DNA from: a virus
Direction: 5' to 3' (one strand)
Length of the DNA stretch: 35,890 nucleotides
Virus record (IMG/VR): IMGVR_UViG_3300035670_000715
Coordinates: 1-35,890 of that record
The notes under the pieces were generated by a model that saw only the letters and a program-made list of their open reading frames with translations, did no database searches and was not told the DNA's origin. Both the position numbers and the translations under genes were made by a program. Numbering within the stretch: the stretch's first letter is position 1; the number at the start of each line of letters is the position of its first letter. Below are positions 4,569-25,374 of the stretch, in pieces.

Positions 4569-6737
4569 TTATTTAACCGTGAAAGAAGTGGACGTACATA
4601 CCTTGTCTTCGACCAACTTCATTGTTCTGGAGCATACTGTTACTGTATGGTCCCCAACTGCAAGACCGTATAGATCAACAGAACCACGCTGCATCCAGAA
4701 ACTCCAAGGGTTGTTGTCTAGTTTGTACTTATACTGAGTCAACCCTGTCGCAGTGCTTGATAGCATAATCACAACAGGAAGGTTCTTGTCGTATGTTGCA
4801 TTAGCAGACACTATGGTAGAAGGGGCAGGTTCTACTACAGTAGAACCGTCAATGATTGTGATGTTTGTTCCAACAACGCCATTAGAAGGAACCCAGAGTT
4901 CGCCGATGTTGATCTTGAGACCTTCAAACGATGGAAGAGGAATTCTGGCAGCGGCTTTCTGAATGTACGGGAGAGTTAGTTTGGTGATGCTGTCAACGAA
5001 ACTCTGCGCCAGATTCTCAGAGAGAACCAAAGTTCCTTGTTCGATCTTCTTGATTCTGATCTGTGGGAATCCAACAAACTCAAGACCAAGCATTCCGCTG
5101 TCATCAACGCCGATGTTAACGAAGGCTTCGACGTCAACAACAGCACCCATCATTGTCTTGTACTGCAATGTAGAATCCATAATCGCATCTAGTCGAACAT
5201 AGAAGTCTTGCATCTTGAACTTTGCAATTCCTTTGGAAGATTTGACGAAGTCAATCACAGGAGCAGAAACAGGTCTGGTGATTAGTTTGATTTGCCCTTG
5301 TGTCTGAGTCGGAACTCCGATTACATCTTTCTCGGAAAGGTTCAACGACAGCAAGCCAGAAGAAGTCGCTGCTGCAAGAATCTGGTTCACCATATCTTGA
5401 GAGATCATTGCTCCAACGTCCATTGTTTTCCCGCTTGGTGAAGTATTTGAAGCAGCAGGAACATCAGCAACACCAATCCAGTGACTGCCTAGAAGTTTTG
5501 GACCATTGGTTGTTAGATTGTACGACCTAGCAGAGAGTTTCAGGTCAAGGAAAGACGCATTAGAAGAAAACGACTCAGGAACGATGTCTGGCTTGATCTG
5601 GCTTCCGTTGATGTCAACATAAATGGTCTTAGGGAATGTGTCAACGAACTCAGCAAGTTTTGGAGGCAGAATTTGCTTGATCTGGTTTGACAGGATTATT
5701 TCGAACAGCCAGTTAAACGCATCGTAGAAGATAGACGCAAACCCATCGGGAAAGCCCGAGATATCGGTTCTGAGCGTGTCTAGCTGCACGTTAAGGCTAG
5801 GTATACCCACGTTGACAACACCGTTGGAGATTGAAACTGTAGCCTTTCCAGTGAAGGAGGCAGAATCGAGCATAATGTTGCCAGACTTGGAAAGTGTTGG
5901 AAGCCCCCACATCCAGAAATCGTATGAGAATGTTCCATTTGCCCAGACGTCATAGAAAGTTCCAGAAACGTCGAACGTGTTAGCAGTCGCAGTTGGGGTT
6001 AGATTGAGAACTGCTCTACCAACCTTTGCGTCGTTTGCGTCGATTCTATATGTGTCTAGGAGAAGTTTGTCTTCTTTGATTGGATTGAAGTTTTTGACCA
6101 TCTGACCCAATGCAGGAGAAGCAAGAACTTTTGCAGTCTGGTCGACCATGAACTTCAGACCGTTCTTGTTGATCCTGACAGAAACAGAGTTCTTTGCGAT
6201 AACAGTGTTGTCAGCAAACTTCTGAGTGTTCTTGTAACCATTTACGTCTTCGGTCGAGAAAGAATAAAAAGTTCTCTTTGCAGTTGTGATCGAGAAGTTG
6301 TTTGTTGAATCTAGCGCAACAGCAACACCGTCTATTGTGACAGTCTTGACACCAGAAGCGTCTTCAACAAACCCAGATATTTGAACTGAAGTTCCTATTG
6401 TTGTCTGTGTAATATGAACGACTGGACCAGTGGTGTCATATAAAAACTTGACTGAAGGAGTCGTAGGAGTTTTGATATGAACGAAGTTCTCGTTCTCTTG
6501 GAGATACTGTTTGATAGACTCGCCAGATACCGTTGCCCCTGTATCAGTTACAGAAAAGAACGAAGATATATCAGTGTTGTTGATAGAGACAACAAGTTTG
6601 TCTGGCTTGCCCTTGGGAAAAGAAAGAGTAATATCTGGTGGGGTCAGATAAACTTTTCCTTGGTTGGGATTGGTGACAGTTACAGTTTTACAAGCAGTGA
6701 TCATGAACACGAGACACAGGAGTATAACTCTTTTCAT
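4569..6737 (-). CDS. Large predicted lipoprotein, TULIP-like core flanked by Ig-like domains
   Basis: A 722-residue protein with a short signal peptide (MKRVILLCLVFM) and lipobox ITAC, giving lipidation at Cys16. Residues about 100-170 look like a bacterial Ig-like domain (DTTGPVVHI, VEDASGVKTVTIDG). The long middle has repeated amphipathic strands and a helix, and a segment LPSFEGLKINIGELWV that resembles lipid-binding TULIP (BPI/SMP) proteins. The end resembles a Y_Y_Y or Ig-like domain (QYKYKLDNNPWSFW). The TULIP reading is a visual impression only. It has its own late promoter, lies between gp8 and the fibre genes, and should be placed in the host envelope late in infection. Roles to consider are blocking superinfection, altering LPS, or aiding lysis. 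The ATG at 6737 was chosen over a GTG one codon earlier because GAGGA sits 8 bases upstream. Confidence 0.75.
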   Translation of the reverse strand: MKRVILLCLVFMITACKTVTVTNPNQGKVYLTPPDITLSFPKGKPDKLVVSINNTDISSFFSVTDTGATVSGESIKQYLQENENFVHIKTPTTPSVKFLYDTTGPVVHITQTTIGTSVQISGFVEDASGVKTVTIDGVAVALDSTNNFSITTAKRTFYSFSTEDVNGYKNTQKFADNTVIAKNSVSVRINKNGLKFMVDQTAKVLASPALGQMVKNFNPIKEDKLLLDTYRIDANDAKVGRAVLNLTPTATANTFDVSGTFYDVWANGTFSYDFWMWGLPTLSKSGNIMLDSASFTGKATVSISNGVVNVGIPSLNVQLDTLRTDISGFPDGFASIFYDAFNWLFEIILSNQIKQILPPKLAEFVDTFPKTIYVDINGSQIKPDIVPESFSSNASFLDLKLSARSYNLTTNGPKLLGSHWIGVADVPAASNTSPSGKTMDVGAMISQDMVNQILAAATSSGLLSLNLSEKDVIGVPTQTQGQIKLITRPVSAPVIDFVKSSKGIAKFKMQDFYVRLDAIMDSTLQYKTMMGAVVDVEAFVNIGVDDSGMLGLEFVGFPQIRIKKIEQGTLVLSENLAQSFVDSITKLTLPYIQKAAARIPLPSFEGLKINIGELWVPSNGVVGTNITIIDGSTVVEPAPSTIVSANATYDKNLPVVIMLSSTATGLTQYKYKLDNNPWSFWMQRGSVDLYGLAVGDHTVTVCSRTMKLVEDKVCTSTSFTVK
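4570..4577 (-). promoter_or_regulatory. Late promoter -10 element (GTTAAATA) for the fibre genes
   Basis: The minus strand carries GTTAAATA ending about 36 bases before the fibre ATG at 4534. It resembles the T4 late -10 sequence TATAAATA, which is read by RNA polymerase with gp55. The same octamer occurs upstream of several other late genes here. The element overlaps the 3' end of the lipoprotein gene. Confidence 0.6.
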
Positions 6738-6764
6738 CACACAATCCTCGATAGGAGTTTAAGA

Positions 6765-7901: not shown

Positions 7902-10900
7902 TTAAATTGATACTACAGAAACAGCTGGTAGAGCGAGAACATTACCAGCAGAGTCTCCGACAAAAAGTTTCACAGATTGGATCGGAGCCAGTGGATCGCT
8001 GGAATTAGCTGTAAACCAATTTGATGTAGCGACTGTGTGTGGTATTTCTCCAAATCCATATGTCTGCAATAATTGTACAATTTTCTTGTACTTAGAAGCG
8101 TAGTTCTTCGAACAAACCCTGAGTGTTGTTTGAATCTTGTTTGAATCGACCTTCTTCGTTTTCATATAAATCTTACTTCCGATGCGGTTCAAACCATATC
8201 CATTTGTGTTACCTGGGGCTGGCAAAGTCAATACAGAACTTCTAGTCAACTGACTTGGACAATATATCTCTACGGATTCATCTTCTAAAAGATCACGAGA
8301 AAGGGTTATGTGAACTGTCAAATCTACGAAATCTATATCCCCATTAGTTCCAAAATTAAAGTTTACCAATTCTGGCAGACCAATAGAACCATCAGTAACT
8401 CCATTAGATCTTCTCTCATCTTTTATTTTAGTGCGATCAACAGAGACAACATTGTTGTTAAACTTCACGGCATTATTTTGATTTCCAGAAGCATATTGTA
8501 TGTTCGTTATCTGTATTGGAGGTATGGTATTCCTGAAGACATACGGTTGATCTATCACGATAGTCTCGTTGCCGATATAATCAACAATCTTCACAACAAC
8601 ATTGTTATTCCCTTCTACGAGAGTGCATCGATCCCATATAAAAGCGAGTTTTCCAGATTTTGGTTGGTCGATGGTTTTGTATTCTGGTACACCACCAGTA
8701 CCAGATGGCATTCTGTGTGACCTGTAACCATTTTCATTTACGTCAGAAGAATTTGCAAAGGAAAACCCAGGTTGAGTGTATCCTTCAGATGCATAGTTGA
8801 ATTCAGAAGATACTAGATTCGAAGCTTTGTATGCAACAATGGCTTTGTGTCCCAACGTAGTAGAGACCAGATTATTACCTTTTATTGTCTTGAATTCTTT
8901 TATTTTATCTGCTAGTTGTGCAATGGGAAATGTTTCTATGTAGACCCAAGTTTTTCCTCCATCAACAGAACCGTAAACAGTATCATCAGCCTCTAGCTCA
9001 TTCTCTAACACACCTATGATGTTTTGGTGTTTATATGACGTAGAAAATTTTTGTTGGTTGAAACCAGCAGCGAGCCCATAAAAAGGAAACTCACCAATAG
9101 GTTTGGAAGGATCGATATTTGGTATAAACGAAAACTCGGTCTTCACACCATTTGCAGTTCTGATAGTTGGTTTATCCCAATCCTCAAACAAACTTGCAGA
9201 GCCAGTTCCAACTTCTGGATAGTCCCAATGAGTAGAAGGGACTGGATAATAAGATTCTTTCGATTCATCTCTGGTTACAGAAATAGAATCGTCTGGGAGA
9301 GCATCTAGAACATAGTTTTCTAATCCAACATAATCACTTCCAGATGCTTTATAAGAAACTAGAAATTTCCACCAAAAGTTGGTGTACCAGTCGGGATAGG
9401 AATAAGCTTTTCCATTAGACAACTTTGCAGCGTGTCTATACATGAATGGCTCGATGCTTCCTTTGTTGTTCGACCCAACAGACTTTACGAATATTGTTTT
9501 CGAACCAGTTTTCGCTCCTACATTTCCAGCAACGTCCACAGTTCTAAAACAAACTTTGTTGATTCCCTCTTTTAGATCAACATTCCAATTAAACTGTGTT
9601 CTGTCAGCAGAAATAGAATTGGCTGGTATTTTTATCCAATTTTTGCCATCGTCTAGAGAACCTTCTATCAAACAGGAAGCGTCAAACTTCCTAGAGAACT
9701 TACCAGTTATTACCTGGGCTCTAGTTTTTGTATTATAGTCTCCGACCTTATTCAGAATTGAAGTTACTTCTATAGTATGAGTCAAAGCATTGGGGGAAAA
9801 TCTATAAGGCACGGAAGTTTTGCAATTTACAGTTTTCCCAAACTTATCAATATACTTGAATAGAATTCTTGAATTTTGTTCTTTCAGAGTCAATTCTGAA
9901 GAAATGAATTCTCTTCCAGTTATGTTGGAAGATTTTATTTCTGTCCAAGACTTGCCGTCATCGATTGATATGAAAAATCTCTCACCAGACTTCAACGAAT
10001 AATCCAACCGACCACGAATTTTTTGTTTTTCGACTTTCGTGATTAGATCTCGATCTTTTGACGTCAAATCATTTCCTGTGTCTTCAGAGAATTGGATTGA
10101 TTTTTCGATAACATCTTTTACAGTTGACGCAGAAGTTCCAGACAACAAGAAATTTGGAGTCTTGAACTTTACTTCTATATCACCAGACATCTTGCAATCA
10201 GAAATAGCTGTTGCGGTCGCTGGTTTGTATTGTTGATCGGCGGCAGTGGAACGAATCCTCATGATCGTTCCAGCTTCCTTGAAGTATTTTTGGTATTGTT
10301 CCAAGATCGATCTATATTTCGATGGAACAGTATTCAAAAAAGACAAAAGTTCATAATGTCTTGTACCACAACTAATCTGGAACAAAATGTCCCCAGCAGA
10401 AGAATCAGTATATTGCGTCAAAAGAGGCAAGGCTTTCTCGTACGAATAAAATACTTGCTTGGGCTCTTTGTTAGGGAGAGTTTCTCTCGAAACAAGCTGA
10501 CACTCAAGTTTTCTTGTTTTTGTGTCAAGAAGCATACAAAGGACATATCTTTTGATGTCCTCGAACTTATGCTCATCAAAGCTACACATTCCATAAAACT
10601 GAAGACCATTTTCTTCCTCTATGGTAGAATATTCTATAGATGCCTTTTCTAGATTTGGATCGTATAGATCACCAAATAAAAATGAAGCGGAAACGTCTAT
10701 AGAGAACGTCCTGAGGTCTGGTCCAGAACCATTTCCTTTAAGAAGATCTACTATTTTTTTGTTGGTTGCGTCTGTTGGAAGGGTTGTGTTGGAAACGACG
10801 TTCTTTATGATTTCTCTTGCTTTGGTTATATCTGGATAGATGTGTTCTATCTCTACTTCCAGATAGATTTTTTCTGTACAGGATCTGGAAATGTACTTCG

Positions 10901-11108
10901 AAGAAAGTGTTATTCCACTGAAATATTTTGATGCTATCCCCGCCGCTGATTCGAAACTCTTTGTGTCTGAATAGAATCCTCTTATGATTCTATTGGTTTT
11001 TGTTTTCTTGGCGGGGTTTTGCAGGGTGTATCCAAGATCTACGACAGATGAACTGAAGTTGGATCCAACGTCAGAAAACATCTTGTTGTAAATTGTATTG
11101 TTCGACAT
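7902..11108 (-). CDS. Large Ig-like baseplate-associated protein between gp7 and gp8
   Basis: A 1068-residue protein with no counterpart at this place in T4, where gene 7 directly precedes gene 8. Several beta-sandwich modules are visible. Each has a DGGKTW or DGKNWIKI turn (for example SLDDGKNWIKI and GSVDGGKTWVYIE) followed by a GINKVCFRTVDVAGNVG-type strand typical of bacterial Ig-like domains. The N-terminal ~230 residues (YISRSCTEKIYLEVEIEH) look different and may anchor it to the wedge. No transmembrane segment or signal peptide is seen. The gene has its own late promoter and should encode a virion protein, perhaps the wedge periphery or a fibre connector replacing gp9/gp10 functions. 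That role is inferred from position only. Confidence 0.8.
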   Translation of the reverse strand: MSNNTIYNKMFSDVGSNFSSSVVDLGYTLQNPAKKTKTNRIIRGFYSDTKSFESAAGIASKYFSGITLSSKYISRSCTEKIYLEVEIEHIYPDITKAREIIKNVVSNTTLPTDATNKKIVDLLKGNGSGPDLRTFSIDVSASFLFGDLYDPNLEKASIEYSTIEEENGLQFYGMCSFDEHKFEDIKRYVLCMLLDTKTRKLECQLVSRETLPNKEPKQVFYSYEKALPLLTQYTDSSAGDILFQISCGTRHYELLSFLNTVPSKYRSILEQYQKYFKEAGTIMRIRSTAADQQYKPATATAISDCKMSGDIEVKFKTPNFLLSGTSASTVKDVIEKSIQFSEDTGNDLTSKDRDLITKVEKQKIRGRLDYSLKSGERFFISIDDGKSWTEIKSSNITGREFISSELTLKEQNSRILFKYIDKFGKTVNCKTSVPYRFSPNALTHTIEVTSILNKVGDYNTKTRAQVITGKFSRKFDASCLIEGSLDDGKNWIKIPANSISADRTQFNWNVDLKEGINKVCFRTVDVAGNVGAKTGSKTIFVKSVGSNNKGSIEPFMYRHAAKLSNGKAYSYPDWYTNFWWKFLVSYKASGSDYVGLENYVLDALPDDSISVTRDESKESYYPVPSTHWDYPEVGTGSASLFEDWDKPTIRTANGVKTEFSFIPNIDPSKPIGEFPFYGLAAGFNQQKFSTSYKHQNIIGVLENELEADDTVYGSVDGGKTWVYIETFPIAQLADKIKEFKTIKGNNLVSTTLGHKAIVAYKASNLVSSEFNYASEGYTQPGFSFANSSDVNENGYRSHRMPSGTGGVPEYKTIDQPKSGKLAFIWDRCTLVEGNNNVVVKIVDYIGNETIVIDQPYVFRNTIPPIQITNIQYASGNQNNAVKFNNNVVSVDRTKIKDERRSNGVTDGSIGLPELVNFNFGTNGDIDFVDLTVHITLSRDLLEDESVEIYCPSQLTRSSVLTLPAPGNTNGYGLNRIGSKIYMKTKKVDSNKIQTTLRVCSKNYASKYKKIVQLLQTYGFGEIPHTVATSNWFTANSSDPLAPIQSVKLFVGDSAGNVLALPAVSVVSI

Positions 11109-19923: not shown

Positions 19924-19941
19924 ATGGAATACAATAAGAAG

Positions 19942-19949
19942 TATTTAAC
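19942..19949 (-). promoter_or_regulatory. Late promoter -10 element (GTTAAATA) for the baseplate operon
   Basis: GTTAAATA on the minus strand, about 35 bases before the gp48 ATG at 19906. It lies inside the leader of the plus-strand operon and faces the plus-strand late promoter 18 bases away. Confidence 0.65.
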
Positions 19950-19953
19950 CCCT

Positions 19954-20424
19954 ATGGCATACTCTGGAAAATACGAACCGAAAAATAAGTCGAAATATAA
20001 AGGCGATCCTACGAACATCATATTCCGATCGCTCTGGGAATATCACGTCATGCGTTGGTGCGATTTGAACCCAGACGTGACCAAGTGGGAGAGTGAGGAA
20101 TTTTGTATTCCTTACATCTGCAAGACTGACGGGCAACCGCACAGATACTTCCCAGACTTCCTAATTTCGTTCAGGAACGGCAAAACCGTTCTGGTTGAGG
20201 TAAAGCCTAAACACCAGACGAAACCTCCCGAGAGGAAACGAGGCAAGTCCGAGGAGAAGTTCTTGACAGAGGCACTGACGTATGCCAAGAACATCTCTAA
20301 ATGGGAGGCAGCACAACAGTACTGCAGGAAACAGGGCTATATATTCCAGGTGTGGGACGAAACCACATTGAATTCTATTGGAATAATGACTAACATATCG
20401 AAATATCCCTCGAGGAAGAAGTAG
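19954..20424 (+). CDS. 4: Head completion protein gp4
   Basis: A 156-residue protein (T4 gp4: 150). The N-terminus MAYSGKYEPKNKSKYKGDP is close to T4 MAYSGKWVPKNISKYRGDP, and RYFPDFLISFRNGKTVLVEV followed by KPK matches YFMDIW...FFIEIKPK. The PD-x(n)-ExK arrangement (Pro67-Asp68, Glu82, Lys84) fits a PD-(D/E)XK nuclease fold, as noted for this family. gp4 acts after DNA packaging to complete the head for tail joining. An in-frame ATG at 19924 exists, but the MAYSGK start agrees with T4 and with the late promoter position. The stop is followed directly by the next ATG. Confidence 0.95.
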   Translation: MAYSGKYEPKNKSKYKGDPTNIIFRSLWEYHVMRWCDLNPDVTKWESEEFCIPYICKTDGQPHRYFPDFLISFRNGKTVLVEVKPKHQTKPPERKRGKSEEKFLTEALTYAKNISKWEAAQQYCRKQGYIFQVWDETTLNSIGIMTNISKYPSRKK

Positions 20425-21005: not shown

Positions 21006-22091
21006 ATGGCTTTTTGGGGTGATTTAGTAGCAAAAGCTTCCGATGGAGCCTCTGGGGTTGCCAGCAGTTTTTCCAACTTCAAATTCGATAGCGTTGGTGG
21101 CTTCGTCTCTTCTGTTCTGAATGTCGGAAAAGCAATAAACGATATGTTTAATAAGGGTAAGCCTCCACTATACCCTACATTTAACATAAACGATTTCAGA
21201 TCTTCGTTTTCTGCTGGTGACGACGGAACGATTGCAAGAAACAATTTGTTCGAGGTTATTATAGAACCGCCAATGGCTATGAACTCTGTTGGGAAATCTG
21301 GTGGAAACAGTTCTGGGACAGCATCTCAGCTTCTTGCCAAGAGAATAGAATCAACACAACTACCGTCAAAAACCATAACAACAACAGAACTCAGGACATA
21401 TGGTCCACCAAGAAAAATAGCAACAGGAAACAGTTATTCTGAAATCGATATGACAATGATCATATCAGAATCAATGGCAGAGAGACAATTTATAATAAAC
21501 TGGATGGAATCGATCCAACCTTCGCTTGCAAACGGTCACGATGGAGACATTTCATATTATGACGATTATGCAGGAAACAAATCTAAAATTCTAATCAGAG
21601 TATACGACCAAGATGGAACTTCCCCCAGACTAGAAATCAAACTGATGGAAGCATATCCAATAAACGTGAACGAAGTAAACTTGGATTGGTCTGATAATAA
21701 TTCATATATGAAAATGCGAGTAAAATTTGCATACAGACATTTCACCGAGACATATTACAAGAAAGGAGATCCTCTAAAAGACGAGAGTCTTCTTGGAATG
21801 TTGAGGGGATTCAAAAACGACATCAGAAATACTGTCACTGACATACGGAACCTACGATACAAGTTCAAGACAGAAACTGCAAACCTGAAGGGAATACGTG
21901 ACAGGCTCAGCAGAGACTGGAAAGGTGGCGACCCCCTTTCTAGATTGGAAACTCTTGCTTCTGCTCCCGCCGATCTTCTTGGTGGTTTGAGCGATTCTGT
22001 GTTCAAACTCACAGACAAATCGCAAGGAGGTTCTATTGGTAGCGTTACCGATAAAATAGGATCCAACTTTTCCAAATACTTCTCGTTCTAA
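21006..22091 (+). CDS. 54: Baseplate tail-tube initiator gp54-like
   Basis: A 361-residue protein (T4 gp54: 320) with a tail-tube-type fold visible in residues about 80-250: NLFEVIIEPP, SKTITTTELRTYGPPRKIA, ISESMAERQFIINWMESI, YYDDYAGNKSKILIRVYDQDG, MKMRVKFAYRHF. These strands and the ERxFIxxWM helix are typical of gp19/gp54 tube-like proteins. gp54 binds gp48 and starts polymerisation of gp19. The long tail after residue 255 is basic and helical. It could instead be another tube-fold protein, but gp48 and the tape-measure gene nearby favour gp54. The 45 bases before gp26 hold only its ribosome binding site. Confidence 0.7.
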   Translation: MAFWGDLVAKASDGASGVASSFSNFKFDSVGGFVSSVLNVGKAINDMFNKGKPPLYPTFNINDFRSSFSAGDDGTIARNNLFEVIIEPPMAMNSVGKSGGNSSGTASQLLAKRIESTQLPSKTITTTELRTYGPPRKIATGNSYSEIDMTMIISESMAERQFIINWMESIQPSLANGHDGDISYYDDYAGNKSKILIRVYDQDGTSPRLEIKLMEAYPINVNEVNLDWSDNNSYMKMRVKFAYRHFTETYYKKGDPLKDESLLGMLRGFKNDIRNTVTDIRNLRYKFKTETANLKGIRDRLSRDWKGGDPLSRLETLASAPADLLGGLSDSVFKLTDKSQGGSIGSVTDKIGSNFSKYFSF

Positions 22092-22136: not shown

Positions 22137-22898
22137 ATGGCTCTTCCAACTATCAAATATCCCACCTTTGCCCTAGAAATTCCATCTACAAAGGAACTGG
22201 TAAAATTCCGACCATTTACCGTTGCCGAAGAAAAAATTCTATTGATGGCTTCTGAGTCTGGGAATTTTGAAGACGTATCAAACGCAATCACAGATGTTCT
22301 CACCGCTTGCTTCCTTGGAAACGTCTCTGTCAAAGACCTCCCAAGTTTTGATATCGAATACATGTTCTTGCATGTAAGAGCGAAATCTGTTTCTGATATC
22401 ATAGAACTGCAATACAGAAATCCAGCTTGCCCCAAAGAAGATGGAGAACGCTGCAAGAAAGTTGTCAAGTTGAACATCAAGATCGAAGATGTAAAAGTCC
22501 AACAAGCCAACAAAGAAGGAAAGTTCGAGATTTTCAATCCAAAAGCCGCTTCCAAATCTGGGACGAAGATCATGCTAACAGATGATCTTGGTGTGATGGT
22601 GTCGTATCCAAACGTCGCCAACATCACAAAGGCTAATACCTTCGAAAGCCCGATAGATCAAATCGAAGATCTGATTTCTTCCTGCATCAATTCTGTGTTT
22701 GATGAAGAAAATGTATACACAGATTTCAGCAAAAAGGAATTCAAAGACTGGTACAGCGGGCTTTTGTCTGGTCAAAAAGACTCTCTGATCGAATTTGTCA
22801 AGAACATGCCACAGCTTCGATATGAAATGAACTATAAGTGCAACACCTGCGGATACGAAGAAAGGATGGTGTTCGAGGGTCTGCAGAGTTTTTTATAA
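22137..22898 (+). CDS. 26: Baseplate hub assembly protein gp26 (T4_baseplate family)
   Basis: A 253-residue protein starting MALPTIKYPTFALEIPST, then VKFRPFTVAEEKILLMA, the hallmark opening of the gp26/T4_baseplate family (recalled as PF12322). T4 gp26 is 208 residues. Cys98, Cys106, Cys235 and Cys238 could form a zinc site, with the last pair in the typical C-terminal YKCNTCGYEERM segment. The protein ends in FEGLQSFL, encoded across the slippery heptamer T TTT TTA just before the TAA. GAGGAAATC gives a good ribosome binding site before the ATG. It is likely to be made in two forms, alone and fused to the gp51-like frame, and to act as a chaperone for the tape-measure protein. Confidence 0.92.
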   Translation: MALPTIKYPTFALEIPSTKELVKFRPFTVAEEKILLMASESGNFEDVSNAITDVLTACFLGNVSVKDLPSFDIEYMFLHVRAKSVSDIIELQYRNPACPKEDGERCKKVVKLNIKIEDVKVQQANKEGKFEIFNPKAASKSGTKIMLTDDLGVMVSYPNVANITKANTFESPIDQIEDLISSCINSVFDEENVYTDFSKKEFKDWYSGLLSGQKDSLIEFVKNMPQLRYEMNYKCNTCGYEERMVFEGLQSFL

Positions 22899-22944
22899 TC
22901 AGCACGTTGTACACCTCTCTTGAGGCTTGGTATCGTACAACGTG
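22889..22944 (+). promoter_or_regulatory. Programmed -1 ribosomal frameshift signal at the gp26/gp51 junction
   Basis: Positions 22889-22895 are T TTT TTA in the gp26 frame, a classical X XXY YYZ slippery heptamer, with the gp26 TAA at 22896-22898. After a seven-base spacer, CACGTTGTAC (22903-22912) and GTACAACGTG (22935-22944) form a perfect 10-bp stem. The 22-base loop can form an inner CCTC/GAGG helix. A -1 slip continues into ATA ATC AGC and stays open to 23077. Slippery site, spacer and stem all have the geometry of known -1 signals. Confidence 0.85.
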
Positions 22945-23077
22945 GGCGTTATCTTACTACTATAGATACTCTCTAACAGAAATAAATGAGTTGATTCCAT
23001 TTGAACGGGATTTATATGTTGCATTGACGAATCAACGACAAGAAGAAGAAAAAGAAGAAAGAGAGAAGAATCAATGA
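22895..23077 (+). CDS. 51: gp51-like hub assembly domain, probably made as a gp26 -1 frameshift extension
   Basis: The 60 codons after the slippery site encode SLEAWYRTTWALSYYYRYSL, TEINELIPFERDLYVALTNQ and a Glu/Lys-rich tail. This matches my memory of the short gp51-type peptide that follows gp26 in marine T4-like phages. The frame has no ATG. The only upstream start is a GTG at 22838, deep inside gp26 and without a ribosome binding site; a TTG at 22907 also lacks one and lies in the stem. Its TGA overlaps the tape-measure ATG as ATGA. The best reading is a 313-residue gp26-gp51 fusion. The coordinates given begin at the first codon read after the slip. Confidence 0.8.
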   Translation: MISTLYTSLEAWYRTTWALSYYYRYSLTEINELIPFERDLYVALTNQRQEEEKEEREKNQ

Positions 23078-25374
23078 GTATAGCAGGTGCTGTGGGCAAG
23101 GGTACTTTGAAGGGGGTTTGGGGAGCCACCAAAGTTGTTGGCTCAGGAGTCATGGGAGCAGGGAAACTTGGTGTAAGCGCTGCCAGCTCAGTTTTGGCTT
23201 CTGGTTCTGACACATACAAAAACCTAGAGCCTACTCTTTCGAAGATAGGAAATTATGATCTACTTTCTATGTTCAAAAAGAAGAAAGGGGATCCTGATGA
23301 TCCACCAGGTAGCCCACCAAGACCATCTCCAACTCCCCCTAGCCCATCGCCTCGTCCGACGCCTTGTCCTTCGCCTTGCCCTAAATTTCCACCAGAAATA
23401 GTAACATTACTGGTAAAGATAGAGAAAAACACCAAAAATACGCTAGGCATCGTAGAAGATATGGCGTTTACCATAAACGACCAAATAGCAGAAATAACAG
23501 AAAAAAGTTATAATGTGCTACAGTTGCACACAAAACTCCTAGAGAAAATCGCTGCAGGAATAGGAGGAAAGAAAGACGAGAAAGGTGGAATTGGGAAGTT
23601 GTTGCTGTTCATTGCACCAGTTTTTGCAATGATCACAAACGCATTCACCAAATTTGGAAAAATGTTCACCACTGGAGGTCTGATAGGAAAGGGGCTTTCT
23701 TGGGCGACAACCGCATTCGGAACATTGTTCACAGACATGAAAAAAGGAATTAAAGGAGCAATCAAGAATCTCGGGGGAGGTATTAAATCGGCGTTCACCA
23801 AAGTCAGAAATGGAATTGGTGGTGCAATGAGTTCTCTTGCAGAAAAGGTTGGTTCTTTGTTCCAAAAGGTAACTGGTAGTTTCAAAGCAGCAGCAGAAAA
23901 GGTTTCCAAGTTCTTTTCCAATATTTTTGGATTTAATGCGGACAAGGGTGCTGCCAAAGCAGCAGAAAAGGGTGCTGCCAAAGCAGCAGAAAAGGGAACT
24001 GTTAAGGCAGCAGAGAAAGCCGCTGCAAAAGGCGTTGGGAAATCTTTAATAAAGAAGATACCTCTTGTTGGTGCAATAGCTGGTCTTGGGTTTGGAGCAC
24101 AACGGGCTTGGGGTGGCGATTGGGCTGGCGCTGGGATGGAAGTGGCTTCTGGTCTGGCTGGAACAGTTCCTGGAATCGGAACAGCTGCATCTCTTGGAAT
24201 TGATGCTGGATTGATCGCTAGAGACATGAAAAAAGAAAGCGATGCTCCTGCTCCAATCACCAAACCTGGACTAGTTCCACCAACCCCAACAACAACTGTT
24301 TCGAAACCAGAAGGAGTTTCGCCAACAGAAAATGGTCAATCTTACAAAGAATTCTTCGACGATGAACTCAAAGACTTTGACGAAGATCTTCACGAAATGG
24401 GGTTGGAAGCAGACAAAGAGAATTTCGAAGACTTGACCGAAACATACAAGGACGGAAGCGATGCAACTGTGGAAAGTATCGACAAACTAAACGAAACAAC
24501 GATGAGCCTACCAGAAAAGCTTGCCGAGTTGTTGAGGTCTGGAATGGACTTCGCGAAGGGAACATACAAAAACATGACAGCCAGCCCAGAGGTTGTCAAG
24601 AAGAACGCAGATTTTGTTGAATCTTTGAAGGAAAAAGACCCGTACATGTATCAGCTTGCCATGAAAGAATCTTCTGGTGGTAAGAATCTGTTCGCGACCA
24701 CTTCTTCTGCTTCTGGCGCATTCCAATTCTTGGATTCTACTTGGCAGGACACTGTCAAGAAGATGGGCAAAGACTACACACTAGAAGACAAGCTGGATCC
24801 AGAAAAGGCATACGAGGTTGCCAAGTTCTTCGACCAACAAAACAGACAAGGTCTTCAGAAAGCAACAGGCAAGGATGTATCCGACAAAGATGCATACATG
24901 GCTCATTTCTTGGGGCAGGGTGGAGCATCTAAGTTCCTTTCCAATTATGATCCTAACAATCCGAATCAAACTGGTGTTGAACTTGCTGGAGCAGATGCAG
25001 CGGAAGCTAACAGAAGCATTTTCTACGATAAGGATGGAAAAGCCAGATCTTCAAAAGATGTATACGCAAGCCTGACAAAGTCGTTTTCTGGAGCAGAAGG
25101 AAACGCAGCAACAACCATGTTGGCTTCTAACAACACCACGAAAACAGAACAGCTTGCCAAGTCCAACACAGAAGCCAAACAAGCAGCAGCGCAAGTTGCC
25201 CCGCAAGTTGCTGTCATTTCGCCTCCTGCACAACAGAGTGCTCCAGCTTCTGGAGGATCTTCTTCCAACACCACAGTTAACAACTATAATGGTGGAACAG
25301 AAGATCCTATCATCAGACGCCTGATGGGCGAGATGGCAATGGCAAGATCTGGTTTTGGAGTAGGATTTGCTTAA
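23074..25374 (+). CDS. Tape-measure/hub protein (gp29 position) with lytic transglycosylase domain
   Basis: A 766-residue protein. Residues 1-60 are Gly/Ala/Val-rich; 70-108 are an extraordinary Pro/Ser stretch (SPPRPSPTPPSPSPRPTPC); 110-400 are helical and hydrophobic with an Ala-Lys-Glu tandem repeat; about 505-690 form an SLT-type lysozyme-fold domain. KESSGGKNLFATTSSASGAF includes the presumed catalytic Glu532, followed by the expected FQFLDSTWQ. Gene position after gp26/gp51 fits the tape measure, gp29 in T4 (590 residues). The enzyme domain would open peptidoglycan during ejection, which would make up for the lysozyme missing from gp5. The start overlaps the gp51-like stop, with AGAGAGAAG upstream. 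Confidence 0.85.
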   Translation: MSIAGAVGKGTLKGVWGATKVVGSGVMGAGKLGVSAASSVLASGSDTYKNLEPTLSKIGNYDLLSMFKKKKGDPDDPPGSPPRPSPTPPSPSPRPTPCPSPCPKFPPEIVTLLVKIEKNTKNTLGIVEDMAFTINDQIAEITEKSYNVLQLHTKLLEKIAAGIGGKKDEKGGIGKLLLFIAPVFAMITNAFTKFGKMFTTGGLIGKGLSWATTAFGTLFTDMKKGIKGAIKNLGGGIKSAFTKVRNGIGGAMSSLAEKVGSLFQKVTGSFKAAAEKVSKFFSNIFGFNADKGAAKAAEKGAAKAAEKGTVKAAEKAAAKGVGKSLIKKIPLVGAIAGLGFGAQRAWGGDWAGAGMEVASGLAGTVPGIGTAASLGIDAGLIARDMKKESDAPAPITKPGLVPPTPTTTVSKPEGVSPTENGQSYKEFFDDELKDFDEDLHEMGLEADKENFEDLTETYKDGSDATVESIDKLNETTMSLPEKLAELLRSGMDFAKGTYKNMTASPEVVKKNADFVESLKEKDPYMYQLAMKESSGGKNLFATTSSASGAFQFLDSTWQDTVKKMGKDYTLEDKLDPEKAYEVAKFFDQQNRQGLQKATGKDVSDKDAYMAHFLGQGGASKFLSNYDPNNPNQTGVELAGADAAEANRSIFYDKDGKARSSKDVYASLTKSFSGAEGNAATTMLASNNTTKTEQLAKSNTEAKQAAAQVAPQVAVISPPAQQSAPASGGSSSNTTVNNYNGGTEDPIIRRLMGEMAMARSGFGVGFA
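23944..24015 (+). repeat. 24-base tandem repeat in the tape-measure gene
   Basis: Two identical 24-base units (23944-23967 and 23968-23991) are followed by a degenerate third (23992-24015). Each encodes KGAAKAAE or a variant. The repeat lies in the helical part, where gain or loss of units would change protein length by eight residues. Confidence 0.85.

Follow-up and report, generated by a model that had tools for sequence, protein, structure and literature searches.

A predicted -1 ribosomal frameshift extends gp26 with a gp51-like domain in a divergent T4-like virus and is conserved in sequence among its relatives

Introduction

In phage lambda, a -1 slip at the end of a short tail-assembly chaperone gene adds a small domain to its product, so that gpG and gpGT are both made from a gene lying directly upstream of the tape-measure gene. 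Frameshifts of this G-T kind are widespread among long-tailed phages. A 2016 review described this G-T frameshifting as widely conserved except in T4 (PMC5009743). In T4, gp26 and gp51 were reviewed in 2010 as hub assembly chaperones, and gp51 is reported to be necessary although the particle does not contain it (PMC3004832). One article states that frameshifting is replaced in some T4-like phages by a short gene together with a fusion gene (PMC10885494), and another that poly-T frameshift signals are known in T4-like TAC-N genes (PMC12846349). The latter also describes, for the Vandenendeviridae and Andersonviridae (phage Adele), a conserved -1 frame with a GTTTTT motif just 5' of the tape-measure gene, the downstream part being annotated as a hypothetical gene; its passages on this frameshift give neither stem covariation nor a comparison with T4 (PMC12846349).

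Here we analyzed a stretch of 35,890 bases (the window) from an uncultured T4-like virus, which belongs to other phage families than the Vandenendeviridae and Andersonviridae. As in lambda, a predicted -1 slip at the end of a short chaperone gene would extend its product by a small domain, and the gene next downstream is a putative tape-measure gene. Unlike lambda, the short gene belongs to the T4 gp26 family (PF12322), the slip site has the form T TTT TTN and is followed by a stem, and the virus is T4-like. Tail assembly chaperone genes of T4-like phages, the same genes as those treated here, were reportedly identified by Vladimirov, Gautam and Davidson (2022, Virology 566:9-15), according to papers that cite their work. 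An earlier note on this DNA had known of no description of such a frameshift for T4-like gp26/gp51. The idea that it was undescribed is incorrect, because two articles that cite this work refer to the frameshift (PMC10885494, PMC12846349), and the window locus is a divergent example of an already known chaperone frameshift. What is added here is family-wide conservation, covariation in the stimulator and the occurrence of Straboviridae with the predicted frameshift beside T4; we found no account of conserved stimulators, or of the contrast within the Straboviridae, in the open-access literature.

Results

The window comprises an entire IMG/VR virus record, probably a genome fragment. Its gene content is T4-like and includes baseplate wedge, hub-lysozyme and tube cap families, gp4-type head closure and gp2-type end protector families, and single-strand binding protein and helicase loader families; a tRNA search of the window found none. 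The gp4-type head-closure protein (19924-20421) matches PF08722, the N-terminal domain of TnsA-like endonucleases, at E 6.5e-21. In the baseplate/tail-fibre region, two large ORFs (7902-11108 and 4569-6740, - strand), which encode 1068 and 723 aa, had no PHROG match at E 0.001.

All features of the chaperone locus lie on the + strand. A tail-tube-like protein (21006-22091; phrog_45 tail tube, E 5.9e-38) is encoded directly 5' of gp26 (22137-22898), the putative short tail-assembly chaperone (TAC-N) of 253 aa and 28.7 kDa. The 3' end of gp26 reads ...GAG GGT CTG CAG AGT TTT TTA TAA, so that the codons divide the slippery heptamer (22889-22895) as T TTT TTA, the X XXY YYZ phase suited to a -1 slip, and the TAA stop (22896-22898) follows immediately. 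A 7-nt spacer (22896-22902) separates the heptamer from a putative stimulatory stem-loop (22903-22944), whose arms, CACGTTGTAC (22903-22912) and GTACAACGTG (22935-22944), pair at 10/10 positions; inside the loop, 22914-22917 pairs with 22922-22925 as an inner 4-bp hairpin. The open stretch of the -1 frame (22838-23077) encodes the gp51-like C-terminal domain (putative TAC-C, 22895-23077), and its TGA stop (23075-23077) shares bases with the ATG of the next gene (23074-23076) in the sequence ATGA. The earlier note had described the in-frame heptamer, the adjoining stop, the 7-base spacer, the perfect 10-bp stem with a second helix in its loop and the ATGA junction (23074-23077), and all of these were confirmed to the base at the positions it gave. 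Its 313-residue fusion is also of the correct length, but the mass of the predicted slip product is 36.2 kDa rather than the ~35 kDa given there.

The adjoining ORF (23074-25374, 766 aa) is probably the tape measure, judging from its position, its size and PHROG matches that are weak (E 3.5e-7 and 3.8e-6). An SLT transglycosylase-like segment near residues 523-583 fell below the cut-off (E 8.5e-4), and the first part of the protein contains a proline/serine-rich stretch. T4 gp29 matched neither this ORF nor anything else among the loci searched. The identity of this ORF as the tape-measure gene, as given in the earlier note, is likely rather than proven.

Profile searches assigned gp26 to PF12322 (T4_baseplate; E 1.5e-53, residues 9-253) and to phrog_150 (E 7.5e-55). 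The peptide of the -1 frame matched phrog_634 (baseplate hub assembly catalyst) at E 6.5e-14. The N-domain of the gp26 AlphaFold model (pLDDT 91) aligned with 3fgx at Z 8.1. Residues 1-85/1-87 aligned with the HK97 tail assembly chaperone 2ob9 at Z 7.7, and YqbN (3klu) followed at Z 7.1, values below 8 that can reflect a common arrangement; the next entries fell to 4.6 and 3.0 (rank 5), and Foldseek E-values against the PDB were not significant. On this model, the gp26 N-domain appears to resemble solved tail-assembly chaperones (HK97, YqbN) most closely. A Foldseek search with the 62-aa -1 domain, a small helical unit, gave no significant match; several of its weak matches, with E above 1, are named tail assembly chaperones, but we do not count them as proof. 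A PDB sequence search with gp26 and gp51 returned no meaningful relative. The best PDB sequence matches of gp26 (E 0.002) were mRNA-capping triphosphatases, an identity that we rejected for want of supporting context.

Relatives were collected with gp26 as query (79 loci) and with the -1 peptide as query (80 loci), which together gave 106 distinct junctions; removal of near-duplicates and addition of cultured phages resulted in 91 non-redundant junctions. Of the 106 distinct junctions, 105 place the gp51-like domain in the -1 frame and 104 carry T TTT TTN in phase where the gp51 frame borders on gp26. In the non-redundant set, gp51 lay in the -1 frame throughout, and T TTT TTN was in phase at 91/91 junctions, compared with ~34 expected when amino acids were held fixed and the codon usage of each locus itself was applied; these junctions share descent and the counts are not independent events. 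One pattern of the -1-peptide search spans the slip site. However, the heptamer was present in 31/31 junctions recovered via gp26 similarity only, which indicates that the result was not created by the second search. Heptamer conservation exceeds chance by far.

Only two of the 106 junctions, L018 and L071, were without the heptamer pattern, and in both gp26 seems to be interrupted or incomplete. The gp26 frame of L018 stops early, ahead of the gp51 domain, and in L071 the original search matches gp26 residues 1-86 only.

Upstream of the heptamer, the window carries a putative stimulator, the SD-like sequence GAGGG (22875-22879), at a distance of 9-10 nt. An SD-like motif of at least 4 nt was found 5-20 nt 5' of the heptamer in 63/91 junctions, mostly at a spacing of 8-10 nt, against ~16.5 expected from gp26 controls, an excess that is suggestive only because it follows in part from conserved Glu-Gly/Arg-Gly codons. 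GAGGG in the window doubles as Glu-Gly codons.

The window stem has an MFE of -18.4 kcal/mol (z = -2.05), and 8/200 shuffles were equally stable, so that by itself it is only moderately unusual. Across junctions, fold stability 3' of the heptamer had a mean z of -2.0, compared with -0.15 in gp26 control windows (paired test over related sequences, p about 4e-12). A helix beginning 7 nt past the heptamer was the commonest design (24/91); many relatives have weak or otherwise built structures, and stem design differs by lineage. Within one group of 26 sequences, 6/9 pairs showed double-sided changes and 83% of cells paired, whereas pairing fell to 22-36% when the arms were slid by 1-3 columns as a control; in a second group (A3), covariation was no higher than in shuffles. 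The nearest relative, L004 (gp26 55% identical), keeps 10/10 pairs of the window stem with two compensatory changes (G-C versus A-U and U-A versus A-U), a covariation that is not significant against shuffles (126/500) and that serves as a consistency check, because only two sequences are compared. An Rfam scan of 22700-23200 matched none of the known RNA families, although hits up to E 1 were admitted. Thus, alignment of related junctions, a check proposed in the earlier note, bore out conservation of the heptamer and, for the stem, showed covariation in the 26-sequence group but not a universal structure.

T4 itself presents a different arrangement. By blastp, its gp26 and gp51 proteins are paralogous (E 2e-6). 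The match of gp51 to the gp26 family extends along its full length, and its residues 200-245 (of 249) match a profile of the -1 domain, built from the -1 peptides, at E 8e-9. The two genes are separate and in opposite orientation, and the end of T4 gp26 reads GAG TTC TTT and has no heptamer. Since T4 gp51 consists of a gp26-like body and the same C-terminal domain, T4 encodes the homologous short form (gp26) and the long form (gp51) as separate genes. Other Straboviridae, namely Vibrio nt-1, Cronobacter S13 and Aeromonas AS-szw (L175) and AsFcp_2 (L176), retain the heptamer. Because Straboviridae outside the T4 branch (L175, L176, L169 and L174) keep it, the two-gene arrangement of T4 looks derived within this family.

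In the Ackermannviridae, Klebsiella phage T765 (L168) and Salmonella phage Maynard (L173) have an unannotated gp51-like domain in the -1 frame directly after gp26. Both are without an in-phase X XXY YYZ heptamer, and the sequence there is GAG/GAA ATT TTC ATT TAA TTT TTG.

Discussion

We consider it very likely that gp26 is extended to gp26-gp51 by a predicted -1 ribosomal slip and that the two products are G/GT-like chaperones. This reading, already put forward in the earlier note, is favored by the conservation of the heptamer and its phase, the covariation of the stem, the fold resemblance of gp26 and the fusion found in T4 gp51. Most ribosomes would read U UUU UUA and terminate at UAA, yielding the 253-aa short chaperone, and a minority would slip back by one base and continue in the -1 frame to give the 313-aa gp26-gp51. 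Layout, conservation, covariation, homology and fold resemblance are observed, and the occurrence and rate of the slip are inferred; slipping may be aided by the SD-like sequence ~10 nt 5' and by the stem-loop 7 nt 3'. The protein-binding roles are proposed on the model of lambda gpG/gpGT, in which case gp26 alone would coat the tape-measure protein encoded next, and the extra domain of the long form would recruit tube subunits (PMC5009743). By the same analogy, neither form would be expected in the virion.

The deposited records suggest a different reading, in which a free small gp51 arises through termination-reinitiation or has a start codon of its own. Most database records annotate a separate gp51 CDS (e.g., S-RSM4, S-PM2, Cr30 and phiM12), and an ATG overlaps the gp26 stop in 21/91 relatives, such that reinitiation could yield additional free gp51 there. 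That ATG is absent in the window, however, and in 54/91 junctions the stretch between the slip site and the position 30 nt beyond the gp26 stop is free of ATG. An ATG further upstream in the open -1 frame occurs in 3/91 junctions and is lacking in 88/91. The earlier claim that the gp51-like peptide has no ATG thus stands, with the qualification that the -1 frame of the window holds one GTG, at 22838 inside gp26; an upstream start is not conserved. The annotated gp51 starts are whichever start codon comes further down, and some records omit gp51 altogether. These starts remove conserved residues, because conservation in the alignment of -1 peptides (A5) sets in at the slip site, before any start codon, and the alignment is nearly gapless from there on. 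In addition, a free gp51 would leave the fixed heptamer and phase without a reason, and T4 has both parts in one protein, gp51. We regard a free gp51 in place of the fusion as very unlikely.

The two frames might also be joined by transcriptional, rather than ribosomal, slippage on the T-run, for which the runs of 7-8 T at 51/91 junctions would be suitable. The other 40, including the window, have 6 T only, which is a short run for polymerase slippage. Moreover, the run starts at the third codon base, exactly at the heptamer, in 91/91 junctions, and the SD-like sequence and stem flank it at spacings typical of ribosomal frameshifting; this explanation is, in our view, slightly less probable again. 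It could instead be argued that amino acid conservation and AT-rich codon usage alone produced the heptamer and stem in an ordinary overlapping gene pair, as these genomes conserve Phe-Phe or Phe-Leu and often use codons ending in T. Such effects account for the expectation of ~34 junctions but not for the 91 seen, and the stem covariation and SD-like enrichment also argue against them, making this the least probable of the alternatives.

Taken together with the T4 comparison, the predicted ribosomal frameshift may be an ancestral and near-universal trait of T4-like chaperone genes, tuned by a fixed heptamer, by an SD-like element and by a 7-nt-spaced stem that was repeatedly rebuilt, its spacing often kept and its sequence and topology remade. 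The T4 branch would then have swapped to duplication and fusion, with both kinds coexisting in the Straboviridae. We judge this broader history to be evenly balanced between right and wrong.

The 2022 Virology paper already implies much of what is said here, and the gain made lies in breadth, covariation evidence and annotation repair. Hundreds of cyanophage-type records probably present gp51 as a gene of its own and give it a wrong start. Altogether, our results suggest that the T4-like phages, the textbook exception, join the rule of tail-chaperone frameshifting.
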